Assembly: GCF_010907035.1 (NCBI RefSeq)
Contig: NZ_QUMK01000038.1
Location: 1-52,258 of the forward strand
From: Rhodopseudomonas sp. BR0M22
Lineage (GTDB): Bacteria > Pseudomonadota > Alphaproteobacteria > Rhizobiales > Xanthobacteraceae
Direction: 5' to 3'
DNA: 52,258 nt
The stretch's first letter is position 1. Each line of letters begins with the position of its first letter. The position numbers and the translations under genes were made by a program. Under the pieces are notes generated by a model. It was not told the origin of the DNA. It searched no databases and was given only the letters and a program-made list of their open reading frames with translations. Shown here in pieces: positions 10,662 through 28,719 of the stretch.

Positions 10662-12296
10662 TTAGCTGAACTGGTTCATCGTGTTGTGTTCGCCGCCGGC
10701 CTTCAGGGCCGCGTCGCCGGCGAAGTATTCCTTGTGGTCGTCGCCGATATCCGAGCCGGCCATGTTCTGGTGCTTCACGCAGGCGATGCCCTGACGGATT
10801 TCCTGGCGCTGCACGTTCTTAACATAACCCAGCATGCCCTGGTCGCCGAAATATTCGCGGGCCAGGTTGTCGGTCGACAGCGCAGCCGTGTGGTAGGTCG
10901 GCAGCGTGATCAGGTGGTGGAAGATGCCGGCGCGCTTGGCCGAATCCGCCTGGAAGGTGCGGATGCGGGCGTCGGCTTCGATCGCCAGCGGGGTTTCGTC
11001 GTATTCGGCCTTCATCAGCTCGGCGCGGTTGTACTTGCTGACGTCCTTGCCCTCTTCCTTCCAGGCGTCATAGACCTGCCAGCGGAAGTTGAGCGTCCAG
11101 TTGAACGACGGCGAGTTGTTGTAGGCCAGCTTGGCGTTCGGCACCACTTCGCGGATCCGGTCGACCATCGAGGCGATCTGCTCGATATGCGGCTTCTCGG
11201 TTTCGATCCACAGCAGGTCGGCACCGTTCTGCAGCGAGGTGATGCAGTCCAGCACGCAGCGGTCCGCGCCGGTGCCCGGACGGAACTGGTACAGGTTGCT
11301 CGGCAGACGCTTCGGGCGCAGCAGCTTGCCGTTGCGGCTGATGATCACGTCGCCGTTGCCGATCTTGCTGGCATCGACTTCTTCGCAATCCAGGAAGCTG
11401 TTGTACTGGTCGCCGATGTCACCCGGCTGGTGGCTGACCGCGATCTGCTGGGTCAGGCCGGCGCCGAGCGAGTCGGTGCGGGTGACGATGATGCCGTCTT
11501 CCACGCCCATCTCGAGGAACGCGTGACGGATCGCGCGGACCTTGGCGATGAACACGTCGTGCGGCACGGTGACCTTGCCGTCCTGGTGGCCGCACTGCTT
11601 CTCGTCCGAGACCTGGTTCTCGATCTGCAGCGCGCAGGCGCCCGCTTCGATCATCTTCTTGGCGAGCAGATAGGTCGCCTCAGCGTTACCGAAGCCGGCG
11701 TCGATGTCGGCGATGATCGGCACGACGTGGGTCTGGAAATTGTCGATCTGGTCGATGATCGCGGTTTCCTTGGCCTTGTCGCCGGCCTCGCGGGCCTTGT
11801 CGAGCTGGCGGAACAGGTCGTTCAGCTCGCGCGAATCCGCCTGGCGCAGGAAGGTGTAGATCTCTTCGATCAGCGCCGGCACCGAGGTCTTCTCGTGCAT
11901 CGACTGGTCGGGCAGCGGGCCGAACTCCGAGCGCAGCGCCGCGATCATCCAGCCCGACAGGTAGATGTAACGACGGTCGGTGCGGCCACCGCCGTGCTTC
12001 TTGATCGAGATCAGCTTCTGCTGCGCGATGAAGCCGTGCCAGCAACCCAGCGACTGGGTGTACTTGGTCGGGTCGGCGTCATACGCCGCCATGTCGGCGC
12101 GCATCTGGGCCGCGGTGTAACGGGCGATGTCCAGACCGGTCTTGAAGCGGTTCTGCAGACGCATCCGAGCCACGGCCTCGGCGGTGACGCCATTCCAGGT
12201 CGGCTTGTCCTTGAGGAGAGCTTCGGCCGCTTCGATCTCGCTCTTGTAGGAGGTCGGAGCGTGGATGGCGCTGATGCCGCGTGGCTGGAAGTTCAT
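10662..12296 (-). CDS. aceA: Isocitrate lyase
   Basis: 544 residues. It cleaves isocitrate to glyoxylate and succinate, the entry step of the glyoxylate bypass needed for growth on acetate and fatty acids. The catalytic cysteine motif is EKQCGHQ (Cys about 235), the KQCGH form seen in the longer ICL class (about 530-545 residues) rather than the KKCGH of E. coli AceA. Other conserved segments include PIIADIDAGFGNAEATY (metal and substrate site) and YNNSPSFNW. GAAGGGATC precedes the ATG at 12296. It is divergent from a RamB/ScfR-type regulator across 214 bp rich in TGTAA repeats, so control by that regulator is likely. A DUF4170 gene follows closely. Confidence 0.96.
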   Translation of the reverse strand: MNFQPRGISAIHAPTSYKSEIEAAEALLKDKPTWNGVTAEAVARMRLQNRFKTGLDIARYTAAQMRADMAAYDADPTKYTQSLGCWHGFIAQQKLISIKKHGGGRTDRRYIYLSGWMIAALRSEFGPLPDQSMHEKTSVPALIEEIYTFLRQADSRELNDLFRQLDKAREAGDKAKETAIIDQIDNFQTHVVPIIADIDAGFGNAEATYLLAKKMIEAGACALQIENQVSDEKQCGHQDGKVTVPHDVFIAKVRAIRHAFLEMGVEDGIIVTRTDSLGAGLTQQIAVSHQPGDIGDQYNSFLDCEEVDASKIGNGDVIISRNGKLLRPKRLPSNLYQFRPGTGADRCVLDCITSLQNGADLLWIETEKPHIEQIASMVDRIREVVPNAKLAYNNSPSFNWTLNFRWQVYDAWKEEGKDVSKYNRAELMKAEYDETPLAIEADARIRTFQADSAKRAGIFHHLITLPTYHTAALSTDNLAREYFGDQGMLGYVKNVQRQEIRQGIACVKHQNMAGSDIGDDHKEYFAGDAALKAGGEHNTMNQFS

Positions 12297-12510: not shown

Positions 12511-13953
12511 ATGGCGGCCGATTCCGGCAAGAAACTGTTCGTTGGCCCCCGGTTCCGCCGAATCCGGCAGCAACTCGGGTTGTCACAGACCCAGATCGCC
12601 GAAGGTTTGGGCATTTCTCCGAGCTACGTCAACCTGATCGAGCGCAACCAGCGCCCGGTGACCGCCCAGATCCTGCTCCGGCTGGCCGAGACCTACGATC
12701 TCGACTTGCGCGACCTCGCGACCGCCGACGAGGACCGGTTCTTCGCCGAGCTCAACGAGATCTTCTCCGATCCGCTGTTCCGGCAGATCGACCTGCCGAA
12801 GCAGGAGCTGCGCGACCTCGCCGAGCTGTGCCCCGGCGTCACCCATTCGCTGCAGCGGCTGTACGCCGCCTATACCGAGGCGCGCCGCGGCGAGACCATG
12901 GTGGCGGCCCAGATGGCCGACCGCGAACAGATCCGCTACGAGGCCAACCCGATCGAGCGCATCCGCGACCTGATCGAAGCCAACCGCAACTACTTCCCCG
13001 AACTCGAGCAGGCCGCCGAAGCGGTGCGCGACGAGCTGAATATCGGCTCGCAGGAGATGTTCGGCGCACTGACCGACCGGCTGCGCGAGCGGCATTCGAT
13101 CACCACCCGGATCATGCCGGTCGACGTGATGCGCGAGACGCTGCGCAGGTTCGACCGCCACCGCCGGCAATTGCTGATTTCCGAACTGATCGACGGCCCC
13201 GGCCGGGCCTTCCAGGTCGCGTTCCAAACCGGCCTGACCGAACACGGCGGGGTGATCGATGCGATCGTGCATCGCGCCGGCGGACTCGAGGACCAGGCGC
13301 GGCGGCTGTACCGCATCACGCTCGGCAATTACTTCGCTGCCGCCGTGATGATGCCCTACGCGGTATTCCACGCCGCCGCCGAACAGCTTTCCTACGACGT
13401 CAACGTGCTGGCGCAGCGCTTCAACGCCGGCTTCGAACAGGTCTGCCACCGGCTCACCACGCTGCAGCGGCCGAACGCGCGCGGCGTGCCGTTCTTCCTG
13501 CTGCGGGTCGACAACGCCGGCAACGTCTCCAAGCGGTTCTCGTCCGGCACCTTCCCGTTCTCGAAATTCGGCGGCACCTGCCCGCTGTGGAACGTGCACT
13601 CCACCTTCGATACGCCGGACCGCTTGCTCAAGCAGGTGATCGAACTGCCCGACGGCAGCCGCTACTTCTCGATCGCCCAAATGGTCCGCCGCCCGATCGC
13701 CCCACACCCGCAACCGCAGCCGCGCTTCGCGATCGGCCTGGGCTGCGAAATCCGCCACGCCGCCAAACTGATCTACGCCGCCGGCATGGACCTGGAGAAA
13801 GCCGAAGGCACCCCGATCGGCGTCAACTGCCGCCTGTGCGAACGCGAGCATTGTTCGCAGAGAGCGGAGCCGCCGATCACCCGGACGCTGATCCTCGACG
13901 AGAACACGAGAAGGGCCAGCAGCTTTGCATTCAGCAATGCGCGGGAGCTGTAA
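12511..13953 (+). CDS. RamB/ScfR-type transcriptional regulator of short-chain acyl metabolism
   Basis: 480 residues. An N-terminal XRE helix-turn-helix (about 10-65, with LGLSQTQIAEGLGISPSYVN) is followed by a central IrrE/M78-like region (about 190-310) and a C-terminal DUF2083-type domain. The latter has FPFSKFGGTCPLWNVHSTF and a cysteine cluster NCRLCEREHC. This architecture is that of RamB/ScfR, which sense acetate- or propionate-related signals and control isocitrate lyase and related genes. AAGGA lies before the ATG at 12511. It is divergent from aceA, which makes aceA its likely target. Its last 16 codons exist a second time in diverged form at 15240-15290. Confidence 0.88.
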   Translation: MAADSGKKLFVGPRFRRIRQQLGLSQTQIAEGLGISPSYVNLIERNQRPVTAQILLRLAETYDLDLRDLATADEDRFFAELNEIFSDPLFRQIDLPKQELRDLAELCPGVTHSLQRLYAAYTEARRGETMVAAQMADREQIRYEANPIERIRDLIEANRNYFPELEQAAEAVRDELNIGSQEMFGALTDRLRERHSITTRIMPVDVMRETLRRFDRHRRQLLISELIDGPGRAFQVAFQTGLTEHGGVIDAIVHRAGGLEDQARRLYRITLGNYFAAAVMMPYAVFHAAAEQLSYDVNVLAQRFNAGFEQVCHRLTTLQRPNARGVPFFLLRVDNAGNVSKRFSSGTFPFSKFGGTCPLWNVHSTFDTPDRLLKQVIELPDGSRYFSIAQMVRRPIAPHPQPQPRFAIGLGCEIRHAAKLIYAAGMDLEKAEGTPIGVNCRLCEREHCSQRAEPPITRTLILDENTRRASSFAFSNAREL

Positions 13954-13998
13954 AACGAACCAGACCTACCCGGCTAGGCCAACGAGGCACCCCCACTG

Positions 13999-14925
13999 TC
14001 ATCTAGGACTGAAACGGGAAACTGACTGCATCAACTCGTCCAACCAGGGGAAATTCTCGAACTGCAAACGACGAAATTCTCTTACCCGAAAATGTTCGGT
14101 TAGCTGCGGCTCCCGTTCCCGATAGAATATGTAGTCACGAGAATAGACCTGCGTCACTACGTTGATTAATTCGACCTCCATTTGAGATAGCCTAATGGTA
14201 CATAAAGGCGGTTGAATAAAATAGCGGCTAGGAGCAAATGCGAGAACGGCCATATTAGGAGTGAGCGGCACAAGACATCTGTATTGCAACTCTACGGTGG
14301 ACCCGCGAAGCGTATTTAGGTATCCCTCTCCAAAGATAAACTCGGTCCCGTCTGCCGCCATCAACAAGACAACCTTCCCTCCGAATTTTAGAGAATCGAC
14401 CATCTGCCTATACTGCTGATGCATATTGAGGGCAGTAAGCGTATTGTCCGGCTTTCGCTCGTCACCTCCAAACCTACCCCAGATGTTTTCAGTCACGCCA
14501 TGAATCAAGTGACGATGGCTTGGACATCTTATTAGAAGCGAAGCCAACCCTTCACCTAACCGCTCTCTTTCCACTCGATCGATCCCCACTGGCAGCAGCC
14601 TATCTTCGATCGGACAAGAAAGATTCGCGGCAACACATGGCAATAACGCGAGCCTTCGAACGATTTGGGGAAGGTGAGTATCTGCATCACCAAATAATGG
14701 CTCAATGGTTCCCGCCCAGGGTCCCTGAAGTTTTATATGATGCGCATTGGTAATTGCTCCAAACTGCGCCGAGGGCGCCCTAAGACTCTTTCCCTCCCAC
14801 GATAACCGAGTGACTTTGCCATCCTTATCGTTCCAGAAGGCGGATAATTTCCTAGGCCACCAATGGTGGAGCTCGGATTTGAGCGGTTTGCCCTTCAGTC
14901 CTGTAATCCGGGAAGTTCCGATCAT
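13999..14925 (-). CDS. Unrecognised protein with HHWWP motif (DUF4238-like?)
   Basis: 308-residue protein that I do not firmly recognise. It begins MIGTSRITGLKGKPLKSE and has HHWWPRKLSAFW at about residues 20-31, then ITNAHHIK, and later FIFGEGYLNT and VPLTPNMAVLAFAP. An N-terminal HHWxP together with a late PLTP block recalls DUF4238 (QHYVPxFYL...PLTP), but the match is weak. No signal peptide or TM helix is evident. The gene and its flanks are clearly AT-richer than neighbouring genes (roughly half G+C by eye), which suggests acquisition by transfer. It lies in the rearranged patch between the regulator gene and the decayed transglycosylase fragment. A defence or mobile-cargo role is possible but unproven. 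Confidence 0.65.
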   Translation of the reverse strand: MIGTSRITGLKGKPLKSELHHWWPRKLSAFWNDKDGKVTRLSWEGKSLRAPSAQFGAITNAHHIKLQGPWAGTIEPLFGDADTHLPQIVRRLALLPCVAANLSCPIEDRLLPVGIDRVERERLGEGLASLLIRCPSHRHLIHGVTENIWGRFGGDERKPDNTLTALNMHQQYRQMVDSLKFGGKVVLLMAADGTEFIFGEGYLNTLRGSTVELQYRCLVPLTPNMAVLAFAPSRYFIQPPLCTIRLSQMEVELINVVTQVYSRDYIFYREREPQLTEHFRVREFRRLQFENFPWLDELMQSVSRFSPR

Positions 14926-15067
14926 CTCGATTCTCGGTCAAATTCAATGGTTGAAATATTAGAGCCTTGCGAGACTTCAAATGAACTCCGATCTTTGAGT
15001 AAAGAGAAATTCACCGATCGAGAAAAGGCTTTCATGAAAACCTCAATTCACCAGACGGTCTTTATCG

Positions 15068-15239
15068 CTCCTCCACCGCCCCGCTCAGCGTGGCGCTCGG
15101 TTCATAGCTATCTGAGCTTCGATTAGTTCATCGCCACACTGAAGGCTTCGGCAAGGGTGTCGGAGCGAGCGAGCGCCGAAGCTTCACCGCACCTCGTATA
15201 CGATCAAAGTATCGTCAATCGCGACCGGTGTAGCGGGTG
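15068..15239 (+). pseudogene. Decayed 5' fragment of a lytic transglycosylase gene
   Basis: This stretch aligns with 16183-16365 of the intact transglycosylase. The decayed copy reads AEASPHLVYDQSIVNRDR against AEASPYLVYDQGIVNRDR in the intact protein, and the 50 nt from 15178 match at about 40 positions by hand count. Upstream, CAGCGTGGCGC matches the CAGCGCGGCGC encoding the mature N-terminus. It carries stop codons (TAG 15124, TGA 15238), small deletions and no start. It joins a diverged regulator tail directly at 15240, so it is a non-functional remnant. Confidence 0.8.
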
Positions 15240-15290
15240 AACACGCGGCGGGCCAGCAGCTTTGCACTTAGCAACGCACGGGAATTGTGA
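15240..15290 (+). pseudogene. Diverged copy of the last 16 codons of the RamB-type regulator
   Basis: It reads NTRRASSFALSNAREL then stop. The intact regulator ends NTRRASSFAFSNAREL then stop (13903-13953). The nucleotide match is 41 of 51 by hand, with almost all differences silent, which shows that it derives from a coding copy. It follows the decayed transglycosylase fragment with no gap and is followed by the toxin-antitoxin operon. Confidence 0.85.
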
Positions 15291-15301
15291 AGCTGGCCAG
15301 C

Positions 15302-15319
15302 GTAACGCAAACGTGTTAC
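15302..15319 (+). promoter_or_regulatory. Candidate toxin-antitoxin operator
   Basis: Inverted repeat GTAAC-N8-GTTAC nine bases before the antitoxin start. The ribbon-helix-helix antitoxins of this family repress their own promoter by binding such palindromes. Confidence 0.45.
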
Positions 15320-15327
15320 AGTGAAGT

Positions 15328-15681
15328 ATGGCGGCGAAGACGCAGACCAAGACACCCCGTTCACCCGCGAAGCGGGACGCGAAGACAGCGGGCAAGACGG
15401 CTGCCCGTAAGCCGGTCAAGAGCGGCTACATCAACGCGCGTGTCGAGCCGAAGCTGAAGAAAAGCGCCGAGGCCGTGCTCGACAAGATCGGGCTGTCGAC
15501 CACCGACGCGGTGACGATGTTTCTCAAACAGGTCGTCGCCCATAAGGGCATGCCGTTTCCGGTGAAGATTCCGAACAAGGAGACCATACGCGCCCTACGT
15601 GACGCCGAACGCGGGCGGGTCACGCGGTTCAGCGGCACGACCGAAGAGTTCTTCGCCCACCTGGACAAGACAACCCGCTGA
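15328..15681 (+). CDS. dinJ: RelB/DinJ-family antitoxin with a basic N-terminal extension
   Basis: 117 residues. The DinJ/RelB ribbon-helix-helix part starts at about residue 33 (INARVEPKLKKSAEAVLDKI, then GLSTTDAVTMFLKQV) and matches E. coli DinJ (RARIDEDLK...GLTISDLVRI) in order and spacing. The C-terminal half (PFPVKIPNKETIRALRDAE...) would wrap the toxin. The first 32 residues are Lys/Ala/Thr/Arg-rich (AAKTQTKTPRSPAKRDAKT) and are absent from ordinary DinJ (86 residues). No other good start lies closer to the domain. It is followed after 10 bp by the toxin gene, so the two form one operon. Confidence 0.88.
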   Translation: MAAKTQTKTPRSPAKRDAKTAGKTAARKPVKSGYINARVEPKLKKSAEAVLDKIGLSTTDAVTMFLKQVVAHKGMPFPVKIPNKETIRALRDAERGRVTRFSGTTEEFFAHLDKTTR

Positions 15682-15691
15682 ACGGGGTGTC

Positions 15692-15964
15692 ATGAAGGAG
15701 CTGGACCATACTGGCTCGTTCAAACGCGACTACAAGCGGATCAAGAAGCGTGGTTACGACCTGTCGAAGTTGGCGGCGGTGATCGAGCTTCTGCGACGGG
15801 ACATACCTCTGCCCGCCTCCAATCGGCCTCACGCCCTCAAAGGAAGGTGGCGGGGCTTTCTGGAATGTCACGTCGAGCCGGATTGGCTGCTGATCTATCA
15901 GACCGACGCACACAGCGTGCTCCTGGCCCGAACCGGCACCCACTCCGACCTGTTCGACCAGTGA
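15692..15964 (+). CDS. yafQ: YafQ-family mRNA interferase toxin
   Basis: 90-residue RelE-fold ribonuclease. The catalytic residues known for E. coli YafQ (His50, His63, Asp67, His87, Phe91) all appear here shifted by exactly three: His47 (PHALKG), His60 (ECHVEPDW), Asp64, His84 and Phe88 (TGTHSDLF). The toxin is therefore probably active. It would cut mRNA at the ribosome during translation and be neutralised by the DinJ-like antitoxin encoded just before it. The ATG at 15692 was chosen because it gives the family length; the frame is open further upstream inside the antitoxin gene. Confidence 0.93.
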   Translation: MKELDHTGSFKRDYKRIKKRGYDLSKLAAVIELLRRDIPLPASNRPHALKGRWRGFLECHVEPDWLLIYQTDAHSVLLARTGTHSDLFDQ

Positions 15965-15983
15965 CCGCCGCGTGACCTCTTCG

Positions 15984-16074
15984 GTGCGTCCTTGCCGGGC
16001 TTGACCCGGCACCCCATCCCGCCAAGACTCCTCCTCTGATTTGATGGATCGCCGGGTCGAAGCCCGGCGATGAC
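15984..16074. repeat. Dispersed palindromic element, GCCGGG(C/T) type
   Basis: Two inverted blocks, TTGCCGGGCTTGACCCGGC near the left end and GCCGGGTCGAAGCCCGGC near the right end, flank a short centre (CATCCC...GATGGATC). This is the style of short intergenic element common in this group. It separates the toxin gene from the transglycosylase. Confidence 0.6.
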
Positions 16075-16090
16075 GTTTGGGGAGACGGAA

Positions 16091-17443
16091 ATGCGACGGC
16101 TCAAGGCGACGGCGAGACATTTGCGGACATCCGTTGGCGCGACGGCCGCGGTCGTAGCTCTCGCGGCGGCCGCCTCTCTCGGCGCCTCCCCCGCCCTCGC
16201 CCAGCGCGGCGCCTCGTGCCACGGCGGGCAGAGCTTTCCGCAGTTCCTCGCGGGCCTGAAACAGAAAGCCGTTGCGGCCGGCGTGTCACAGCAGGCGATC
16301 GCCGAGGCGTCGCCGTATCTCGTGTACGACCAGGGCATCGTCAATCGCGACCGCGGGCAGCGGGTGTTCGGACAGATCTTCACCGTGTTCGCCGGACGGA
16401 TGGCCTCCGAAGGACGGCGCGTCAAAGGCCAGCAATTGATCAGGCAATACGCGAACGCGTTCGCGCGGGCCGAAAAGGAATACGGCGTGCCGCCGGCGGT
16501 GATCGCCGCATTCTGGGCGCTGGAGAGCGATTTCGGTGCGGTGCAGGGCAATCTGCCGACGCTGCGCTCGCTGGTGTCGCTGGCCTATGACTGCCGCCGC
16601 TCCGAAATGTTCCAGGACGAGACCATCGCGGCGCTGAAGATCATCGATCGCGGCGACCTGACGCCGGGCGAGATGATCGGCTCCTGGGCCGGCGAACTCG
16701 GCCAGACCCAATTCCTGCCGCGGCATTATTTCGACTACGCGGTCGACTACGACGGCGACGGCCACCGCGACCTGCTGCACAGCGCGCCCGACGTGATCGG
16801 CTCGACCGCCAACTACATCGCCACCGGGCTGAAGTGGCGGCGCGGCGAGCCGTGGTTGCAGGAGGTGCGCGTGCCGGAGAACCTGCCGTGGGATCAGGCG
16901 GATCTCACCGTGAAGCATCCGCGCTCGCAATGGGCGCAGTGGGGTGTGACCGCGGCGGACGGACGGCCGCTCTCGAACGACGCGCTGCCCGCGTCGCTGC
17001 TGCTGCCTATGGGGCGGCACGGCCCGGCGTTCCTGGCTTACGCGAACTTCGCCGCCTACACCGAGTGGAACAACTCGCTGATCTATTCGACCACCGCGGC
17101 CTATCTCGCCACCCGGATCGCCGGAGCCGGGCCGATGCAGAAGCCGCGCGCCGCGGTCGCGCAGCTGTCGTTCAACGAGATGAAGCAGTTGCAGCAGCTT
17201 CTGGTGCGCGCCGGTTTCGACGTCGGCAAGGTCGACGGCGTGCTCGGTCAGCAGACCCGGAGCGCCGTGAAGGCGATGCAGCTCAAATACGGCCTGCCGG
17301 CGGATTCCTGGCCGACCGCCGAACTGCTCGCCCGGATGGGCGGCAGCGCGGCGGCCCCGTCGACCGCCGCCGAGCCTTCCAGCGAGGCGACCAGCGAGCG
17401 GCGGCGTGTCAGACGCGCCCGGCCGGCCGCGCCGGCGCAATAG
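16091..17443 (+). CDS. Lytic murein transglycosylase with peptidoglycan-binding domain
   Basis: 450 residues from the ATG at 16091 (MRRLKATARHL; GGGGAGACGG upstream). A signal peptide ends at about ASPALAQ, so the enzyme acts in the periplasm. The SLT_2/MltB-type catalytic domain (about 50-345) has FWALESDFGAVQGN, with the catalytic Glu in ALESDFG, and then GSWAGELGQTQFLP and DYDGDGHRD. A PG_binding_1 domain (about 365-425, QQLLVRAGFDVGKVDGVLG) follows, then a basic Ala/Arg tail. It cleaves the MurNAc-GlcNAc bond to make 1,6-anhydro ends. A broken, diverged copy of its 5' part lies at 15068-15239. Confidence 0.93.
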   Translation: MRRLKATARHLRTSVGATAAVVALAAAASLGASPALAQRGASCHGGQSFPQFLAGLKQKAVAAGVSQQAIAEASPYLVYDQGIVNRDRGQRVFGQIFTVFAGRMASEGRRVKGQQLIRQYANAFARAEKEYGVPPAVIAAFWALESDFGAVQGNLPTLRSLVSLAYDCRRSEMFQDETIAALKIIDRGDLTPGEMIGSWAGELGQTQFLPRHYFDYAVDYDGDGHRDLLHSAPDVIGSTANYIATGLKWRRGEPWLQEVRVPENLPWDQADLTVKHPRSQWAQWGVTAADGRPLSNDALPASLLLPMGRHGPAFLAYANFAAYTEWNNSLIYSTTAAYLATRIAGAGPMQKPRAAVAQLSFNEMKQLQQLLVRAGFDVGKVDGVLGQQTRSAVKAMQLKYGLPADSWPTAELLARMGGSAAAPSTAAEPSSEATSERRRVRRARPAAPAQ

Positions 17444-28450: not shown

Positions 28451-28545
28451 GCACGCACCTTGCAACGTTGATGCGCCATGGTGCGGCTGTTCGCCCGTCA
28501 GGTCAACGCGCGGCGCGAGACGGCTGCGCTCCGCAACACGCACGG

Positions 28546-28649
28546 CCTCATGGTGAGGAGGCGCGAAGCGCCGTCTCGAACCATGGCTGCTGGTACTGCG
28601 CGGCCCACCCTTCGAGACGCCCGGCTGCGCCGGGCTCCTCAGGGTGAGG
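28546..28649. repeat. Dispersed palindromic element, family B, copy 2
   Basis: Inverted relative to the copy at 19703. It runs from CCTCATGGTGAGGAGGCGCG to GGGCTCCTCAGGGTGAGG, with GCCGTCTCGAACC and CCTTCGAGACGCCCGG inside. It lies between glpR and the flavin reductase gene. Confidence 0.8.
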
Positions 28650-28719
28650 ACTCAGTGACCGCAGCAAGGCCGCATGACGGGCCAAAACGGAGGCGACGGC
28701 CGTTTGGACTCACAAGCCG

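Follow-up and report, generated by a model that had tools for sequence, protein, structure and literature searches.

How did broken pieces of two neighbouring genes come to lie, in reversed order, between the intact copies of those same genes? The question is raised by a locus in Rhodopseudomonas sp. BR0M22, found in a 52,258-nucleotide (nt) stretch of contig NZ_QUMK01000038.1 (the whole stretch analysed, hereafter the window). Here an intact ScfR/RamB-like regulator gene is followed by a first cargo gene (the HHWWP gene), a decayed 5' part of a lytic transglycosylase gene, a short 3' end of a regulator gene, a dinJ-yafQ antitoxin-toxin pair as second cargo and, lastly, the intact transglycosylase gene. 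Our analysis leaves evenly poised the proposition that this order arose from a single foreign tract, one end of which was joined by homology and the other illegitimately.

Comparison of the window with itself gave off-diagonal matches between 15149-15227 and 16275-16353 (79 nt, ungapped, 77% identity) and between 15239-15300 and 13902-13963 (62 nt, 77% identity), placing both fragments where the original prediction, made from the window's sequence alone, had located them. Neither is a chance match, because comparison with the whole genome returned E = 3.7e-12 for the transglycosylase fragment and E = 2.4e-6 for the regulator tail, confirming homology to the intact genes. In the aligned sequences the head of the second gene is indeed joined to the tail of the first, and about 1 nt of common sequence is present at the joint today; decay may mask slightly more. 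The expected identity of about 80% holds for the regulator tail, in which 10 of 51 bases differ, and fails for the transglycosylase fragment, which at full length shares about 69-70% of its bases with the intact gene (109 of 158 columns in one comparison, 69.8% over 182 in a separate one), its alignment including one 9-nt and one 1-nt gap. As for the claim that changes are mostly silent, 12 of 18 differences in the 79-nt transglycosylase core are at third positions, and in the regulator tail 5 of 10, with one of 16 residues changed. Since the core changes are mainly third-position, the divergence of the transglycosylase fragment is probably largely older than its decay. A TAG codon occupies 15124-15126 of this fragment, where most intact genes have CAG, and it closes a 30-codon frame (MKTSIHQTVFIA...) that begins with an ATG at 15034 and passes into the transglycosylase frame. 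An event that is old, or that involved a relative, as first proposed, is supported.

The homology of the regulator fragment does not end at its stop codon: the following 37 bases, as far as the start of dinJ, match the junction between regulator and dinJ in relatives. These bases include a palindrome, GTAAC-N8-GTTAC, which starts 11-12 nt past the regulator stop in dinJ-bearing loci (7 of 7 genus loci examined, plus L106 of R. rhenobacensis). It follows the intact regulator in G001, G002, G008, G012, G015 and L106, follows the fragment in G004 and the window, and is absent from all eight intervals without dinJ (seven genus loci and G020); the pattern matches once in the window and never in 100 shuffles. 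Its place, and what is generally known of such pairs, make the palindrome a putative DinJ operator. It stands after the fragment just as it stands after the regulator in relatives with dinJ, and the most plausible reading of the fragment is therefore that it was the end of a regulator gene from which the sequence formerly led directly into dinJ. The window's intact regulator end, by comparison, is followed by unrelated sequence leading into the HHWWP gene. Fragment, dinJ-yafQ and intact transglycosylase thus look like the original allele, with the intact regulator end, HHWWP gene and transglycosylase fragment apparently belonging to a second allele that was added upstream of it. Over 92 positions of tail and junction, 82 agree with the G004 fragment, 75 with G015 and 55 with the window's own intact regulator end. 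The dinJ-yafQ pair itself is 93-96% identical to those of G004 and G015, and looks inherited since this is no less than the identity of flanking DNA to the same two genomes (92-93% in 22.9-31.0 kilobases (kb); 85% and 90% in 1-8 kb).

To place this locus in its genus, we compared 16 genomes including its own, of which 14 carry both flanks on one contig and two (G005, G013) are split between contigs. Five of the 14 loci have dinJ-yafQ alone between intact regulator and transglycosylase genes, with the window's toxin type in G015 and G008 and another type in G001, G002 and G012. Four (G006, G007, G010, G011) have an interval of roughly 270-400 nt without evident gene, two hold a GNAT gene (G009 by Pfam; G014 similar by eye), and G003 holds a reading frame of 344 amino acids (aa) that matches no Pfam family at E 0.01. 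The remaining two, G004 and the window, are composite. In G005 an apparent, decayed dinJ remnant is visible by eye, and G020, which has another genus code, carries a DUF6789 gene at the interval. The regulator-transglycosylase interval is therefore a site of cargo exchange, with conserved flanks and differing contents, which supports the original guess of a hotspot. When 15 intervals (the 14 genus loci and G020; G005 and G013 left out) were scanned with their own genes and those of the window, clear extra gene copies appeared only in the window and G004; the other matches below E 0.01 were one of 17 nt and one of 32 nt, each at E 0.005. A wider regulator search, in which 80 of 246 named loci were kept and regulator or transglycosylase matches shorter than 150 aa were dropped, placed isocitrate lyase close beside the regulator in 59 of the 80. 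The transglycosylase lay within the fetched DNA in 20, at 0.4-6.5 kb from the regulator and in 14 cases outside Rhodopseudomonas-named records; it was not found in the other 60 loci, some of them short. Compact intervals beyond the genus occur at L115, L125 and L161. The literature searched, on Rhodopseudomonas yafQ and on the flanking-gene hotspot, yielded no published description of the locus.

The first cargo gene has a guanine-plus-cytosine (GC) content of about 0.47-0.51, and against DUF4238 (PF14022) it scores 19.3 bits, below the 27-bit cut-off, and so is not placed in that family. It has no match in the 15 other genus genomes, which speaks against a foreign 13.9-16.1 kb block with complete copies elsewhere. 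Among 295 other family genomes there is one partial match (G241, 32% over 106 aa, E 6.5e-18), situated at a contig end with no flanking gene within the 1,820 nt fetched, and a class-wide draw of 384 other genomes gave three weak partial matches. The widest match, on a Novosphingobium plasmid, has 33% identity over 86% of the gene. No phage match was found for it, and no PADLOC model matched.

Taken together, these observations suggest the following course of events. The ancestor of this strain would have carried regulator, dinJ-yafQ and transglycosylase, and would have received a tract from a related strain with the allele regulator, HHWWP gene, transglycosylase. The regulator part of the incoming DNA would have recombined by homology with the resident regulator, and the other end of the tract, inside the transglycosylase head, would have become attached, with no real homology, to the final 51 nt of the resident regulator. 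The product of this presumed single event would be a new regulator end, the HHWWP gene, a broken transglycosylase head, the old regulator tail, dinJ-yafQ and the intact transglycosylase, the upstream part being the probable newcomer. Both an incoming and a resident copy of the anchor gene are present, as the intact regulator and the displaced native tail, and the second junction shares little homology, about 1 nt. The simplest account would be that a G010-like tract comprising regulator end, HHWWP gene and transglycosylase head was placed upstream of the resident regulator tail, dinJ-yafQ and transglycosylase.

Phylogenetic trees moderately favour different descent for the incoming tract and the resident DNA, but the breakpoint statistics are weak. 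The regulator fragments of the window and G004 pair with each other (support 90/90), and in the same tree the window's intact regulator tail pairs with G010 (98/96). Intact-gene trees, built with 13 genus relatives (G009, G014, G020, G031 and G034 left out), likewise group the intact regulator tail, 13701-13950, with G010 (99/98); the regulator body has no supported single partner. The intact transglycosylase head groups with G004, G003, G015 and G005 (81/96) and its body with G010 and G004 (98/96), so that groupings shift along both genes, as judged within this locus. Identity of these five genomes (G010, G004, G003, G015, G005) to the window is 91-93% in 22.9-31.0 kb and 85-91% in parts of 1-8 kb, with G003 and G005 also at 81% in one part of the latter. 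The transglycosylase fragment pairs with G010 (90/76), and a tree constrained to unite it with the intact copy of the window is worse by 12.1 log units (p-AU 0.030). The trees and diagnostic sites give a weak indication of a G010-like lineage as donor, too weak to name one.

Several observations weigh against the foreign-tract account. The transglycosylase fragment forms a long branch (0.53) whose placement the program calls unsure, and its diagnostic sites are split, six agreeing with G010 and three with the native state. Constraining the regulator fragment to group with the window's own regulator gives a p-AU of 0.072 and the equivalent grouping in G004 one of 0.275, so that neither is rejected; the regulator fragment covers 35% of the tree columns, and both fragments are short and decayed. 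Within the 52 columns of the coding tail, the G004 fragment agrees at 46, G008 and G013 at 45, the window's own regulator at 42 and G015 at 39, so that kinship to G015 rests on the bases past the stop. A breakpoint scan in the regulator gave p 0.023 against G005, and 0.22, 0.66 and 0.83 against G015, G003 and G004. The postulated donor allele, regulator - HHWWP gene - transglycosylase, was not seen among the 15 other genus and 295 family genomes. Finally, G004, whose architecture is similar, with ImmA/IrrE-like cargo and a displaced regulator tail of ~200 nt, fits a simple duplication as well, because its fragment is 93.8% identical to its own regulator.

The original prediction had read the locus as a resident tandem duplication of regulator tail, spacer and transglycosylase head, in which the cargo of one spacer was later replaced through the homologous flanks. 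This would give exactly the observed order, exchange of cargo between intact flanks is common in the genus, and the regulator fragment may yet belong with its own clade on the p-AU value above; we consider it a possibility, albeit a rather improbable one. It requires two events, and it is not the simplest account, because the regulator fragment and palindrome together are the junction that relatives normally have between regulator and dinJ. In the constrained test the transglycosylase fragment does not come out as sister to the intact gene, though later exchange could have replaced it, and the regulator fragment is nearest to that of G004 rather than to its own gene, where again later exchange could hide a duplication. 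Among the 14 complete genus loci there is no unexchanged duplication with two equal spacers, and the window's spacers are unrelated. Moreover, G004 has a displaced regulator tail and, in our scan, no transglycosylase fragment in its interval, which such a duplication does not directly yield; for the window and G004 a single foreign tract accounts more simply for the data than duplication followed by exchange.

The direction could also be reversed, with regulator - HHWWP gene - transglycosylase resident and an incoming regulator tail, dinJ-yafQ and transglycosylase head displacing the old head. The intact transglycosylase gene would then be a mosaic with a crossover near 16.4 kb, in agreement with the different groupings of its head and body, and the displaced head does group with G010. 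This reversal is nevertheless unlikely: dinJ-yafQ looks inherited, its identity to G004 and G015 being at or above background, the HHWWP gene is the rare, low-GC part and occurs in no other genus member, and the tail of the intact regulator, unlike its body, likewise leans towards G010. In both the window and G004 the insert lies between copies of the regulator 3' end, as would be expected if a site-specific element or transposon had carried an HHWWP unit into that end, the tail being a target duplication or a replacement 3' end. The repeats are, however, very unequal (51 versus about 200 nt) and diverged, no integrase or transposase was found among the cargo genes scanned (a scan of part of the reading frames), and the insert of the window terminates in part of the adjacent transglycosylase gene, unexpected for a mobile element, making such an insertion highly improbable. 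Hardly credible, in our view, is a false join of two alleles during assembly. The genome assembly comprises 159 contigs and the G005 and G013 assemblies break at the interval, but the fragments are diverged and decayed rather than exact copies, and the single-contig genome G004 has a similar structure.

The cargo of G004 (L072 3818-5754) consists of an HTH/ImmA-like gene and a 243-aa partner of no Pfam family. The pair is found in 5 of 295 other family genomes, with partner identity of 28-77%, and neither regulator nor transglycosylase lies beside it in the ~3.7-kb loci of those five. Both scars, in G004 and the window, retain intact dinJ-yafQ and palindrome, and no scar is seen in the five simple dinJ-yafQ loci, the four gene-free loci or the three with other cargo. 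We therefore considered whether the toxin-antitoxin pair turns a site of swapping into one of piling up. Recombinants that replace dinJ-yafQ would lose the antitoxin and die, and survivors would be those that took in new cargo on the upstream side of the dinJ palindrome, displacing rather than replacing the old cargo. With only two scars, and with the apparent dinJ remnant of G005 (seen by eye) indicating that the pair can be lost, this idea is doubtful.

Both the mechanism and the kind of hotspot are already described in other bacteria. In homology-facilitated illegitimate recombination, one end of the foreign DNA is joined by homology and the other illegitimately (PMC3240628, in the part available to us), and PMC5361080, also seen in part, refers to work on it in Acinetobacter, Streptococcus and Pseudomonas stutzeri. 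The window resembles these cases in a presumed homologous join at one end and a junction with almost no shared sequence, and differs from those studies in being reconstructed from an old scar. The available part of PMC5361080 describes type VI secretion system effector-immunity clusters of Vibrio cholerae, where a new module is inserted beside a conserved stretch and moves the older one downstream, and its authors propose the same recombination for these displacement arrays. Like them, as far as that text describes them, the window has a conserved upstream anchor, new cargo adjoining it, and an old 3' remnant with old cargo pushed downstream; unlike them, it is anchored by a housekeeping regulator that has no relation to the cargo, there is only one displacement step per strain, and the incoming tract stops inside the flanking gene on the far side. 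For hotspots without mobile elements, recombination in flanking core genes has been proposed as the driver in the part seen of Oliveira et al. 2017 (PMC5635113). The small interval between conserved genes, the strain-specific cargo and the absence of a mobile-element gene among the cargo scanned agree with the hotspots as described there; the difference is that our interval is known from only 14 genus loci and that its flank recombination is judged from the tree groupings at this locus.

Table 1 Features of the regulator-transglycosylase locus and its upstream neighbour (window coordinates)
Feature	Position	Strand	Evidence
Isocitrate lyase	10662-12296	-	named from its sequence
Intact ScfR/RamB-like regulator (HTH_3, Peptidase_M78, ScfRs), TAA stop	12511-13953	+	PF09856 1.6e-67
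First cargo: 308-aa HHWWP gene, remotely DUF4238-like	13999-14925	-	PF14022 E 8e-4
Decayed 5' part of transglycosylase gene, TAG at 15124-15126	15068-15239	+	sequence matches, alignment
Junction of transglycosylase head and regulator tail	15239-15240	.	aligned sequences
Displaced old regulator 3' end, 16 codons and TGA	15240-15290	+	sequence matches
Palindrome GTAACGCAAACGTGTTAC, putative dinJ operator	15302-15319	.	pattern comparison among loci
Second cargo: DinJ/RelB antitoxin	15328-15681	+	TIGR02384 9.3e-20, PF04221 3.8e-15
Second cargo: YafQ/RelE-type toxin	15692-15964	+	PF15738 1.7e-33
Intact MltB-type lytic transglycosylase with peptidoglycan-binding domain	16091-17443	+	TIGR02283 1.4e-111, PF13406, PF01471

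The label RamB-type for the regulator is one of resemblance, because its score against the NCBIfam RamB model is 441 bits, under the cut-off of 700; it lies above the family cut-off for ScfRs (PF09856). The DinJ-YafQ assignment rests on scores above cut-off for both TIGR02384 and PF15738, the latter matching residues 34-120 of a toxin frame scanned from 15599; the narrower TIGR00053 YafQ model gave 76.5, below its cut-off of 87.25. The antitoxin gene is a mosaic (window 15328-15964; L069, L070, L077, L081, L085) with a conserved middle, and its C-terminal part and the toxin fall into two types with mostly 40-60% DNA identity between them. G008 has a G001-like antitoxin start and a window-like end and toxin; since it combines both types, a crossover seems to have occurred inside the antitoxin gene. 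In R. rhenobacensis DSM 12706 (L106 3724-4245), antitoxin and palindrome stand directly before the transglycosylase, with no toxin match between.

Upstream, the isocitrate lyase gene is 96-99% identical to those of G004, G005, G010, G011 and G013. For G011 and G013 this far exceeds the identity of their other stretches (79-88%), which suggests recent spread of one allele. Two short stretches upstream of the transglycosylase gene, at ~15986-16019 and ~16042-16078, are repeated in the genome, with 30 further matches to one, the other or both among the matches listed, and two short elements at ~28530-28675 and ~2474-2587 (~130 and ~100 nt) are multicopy in many genus genomes, again among the matches listed. 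A scan of promoters and terminators remained at chance level.

The scar is real and instructive, and of a known kind; it appears to be a clear if ordinary trace of DNA exchange between related strains. It captures, in readable form, an intermediate stage in the build-up of small cargo genes between housekeeping genes with no evident mobile-element machinery, and the genus provides a second similar case. If the pile-up idea were true, such sites may be shifted by addiction modules from replacing cargo to accumulating it.

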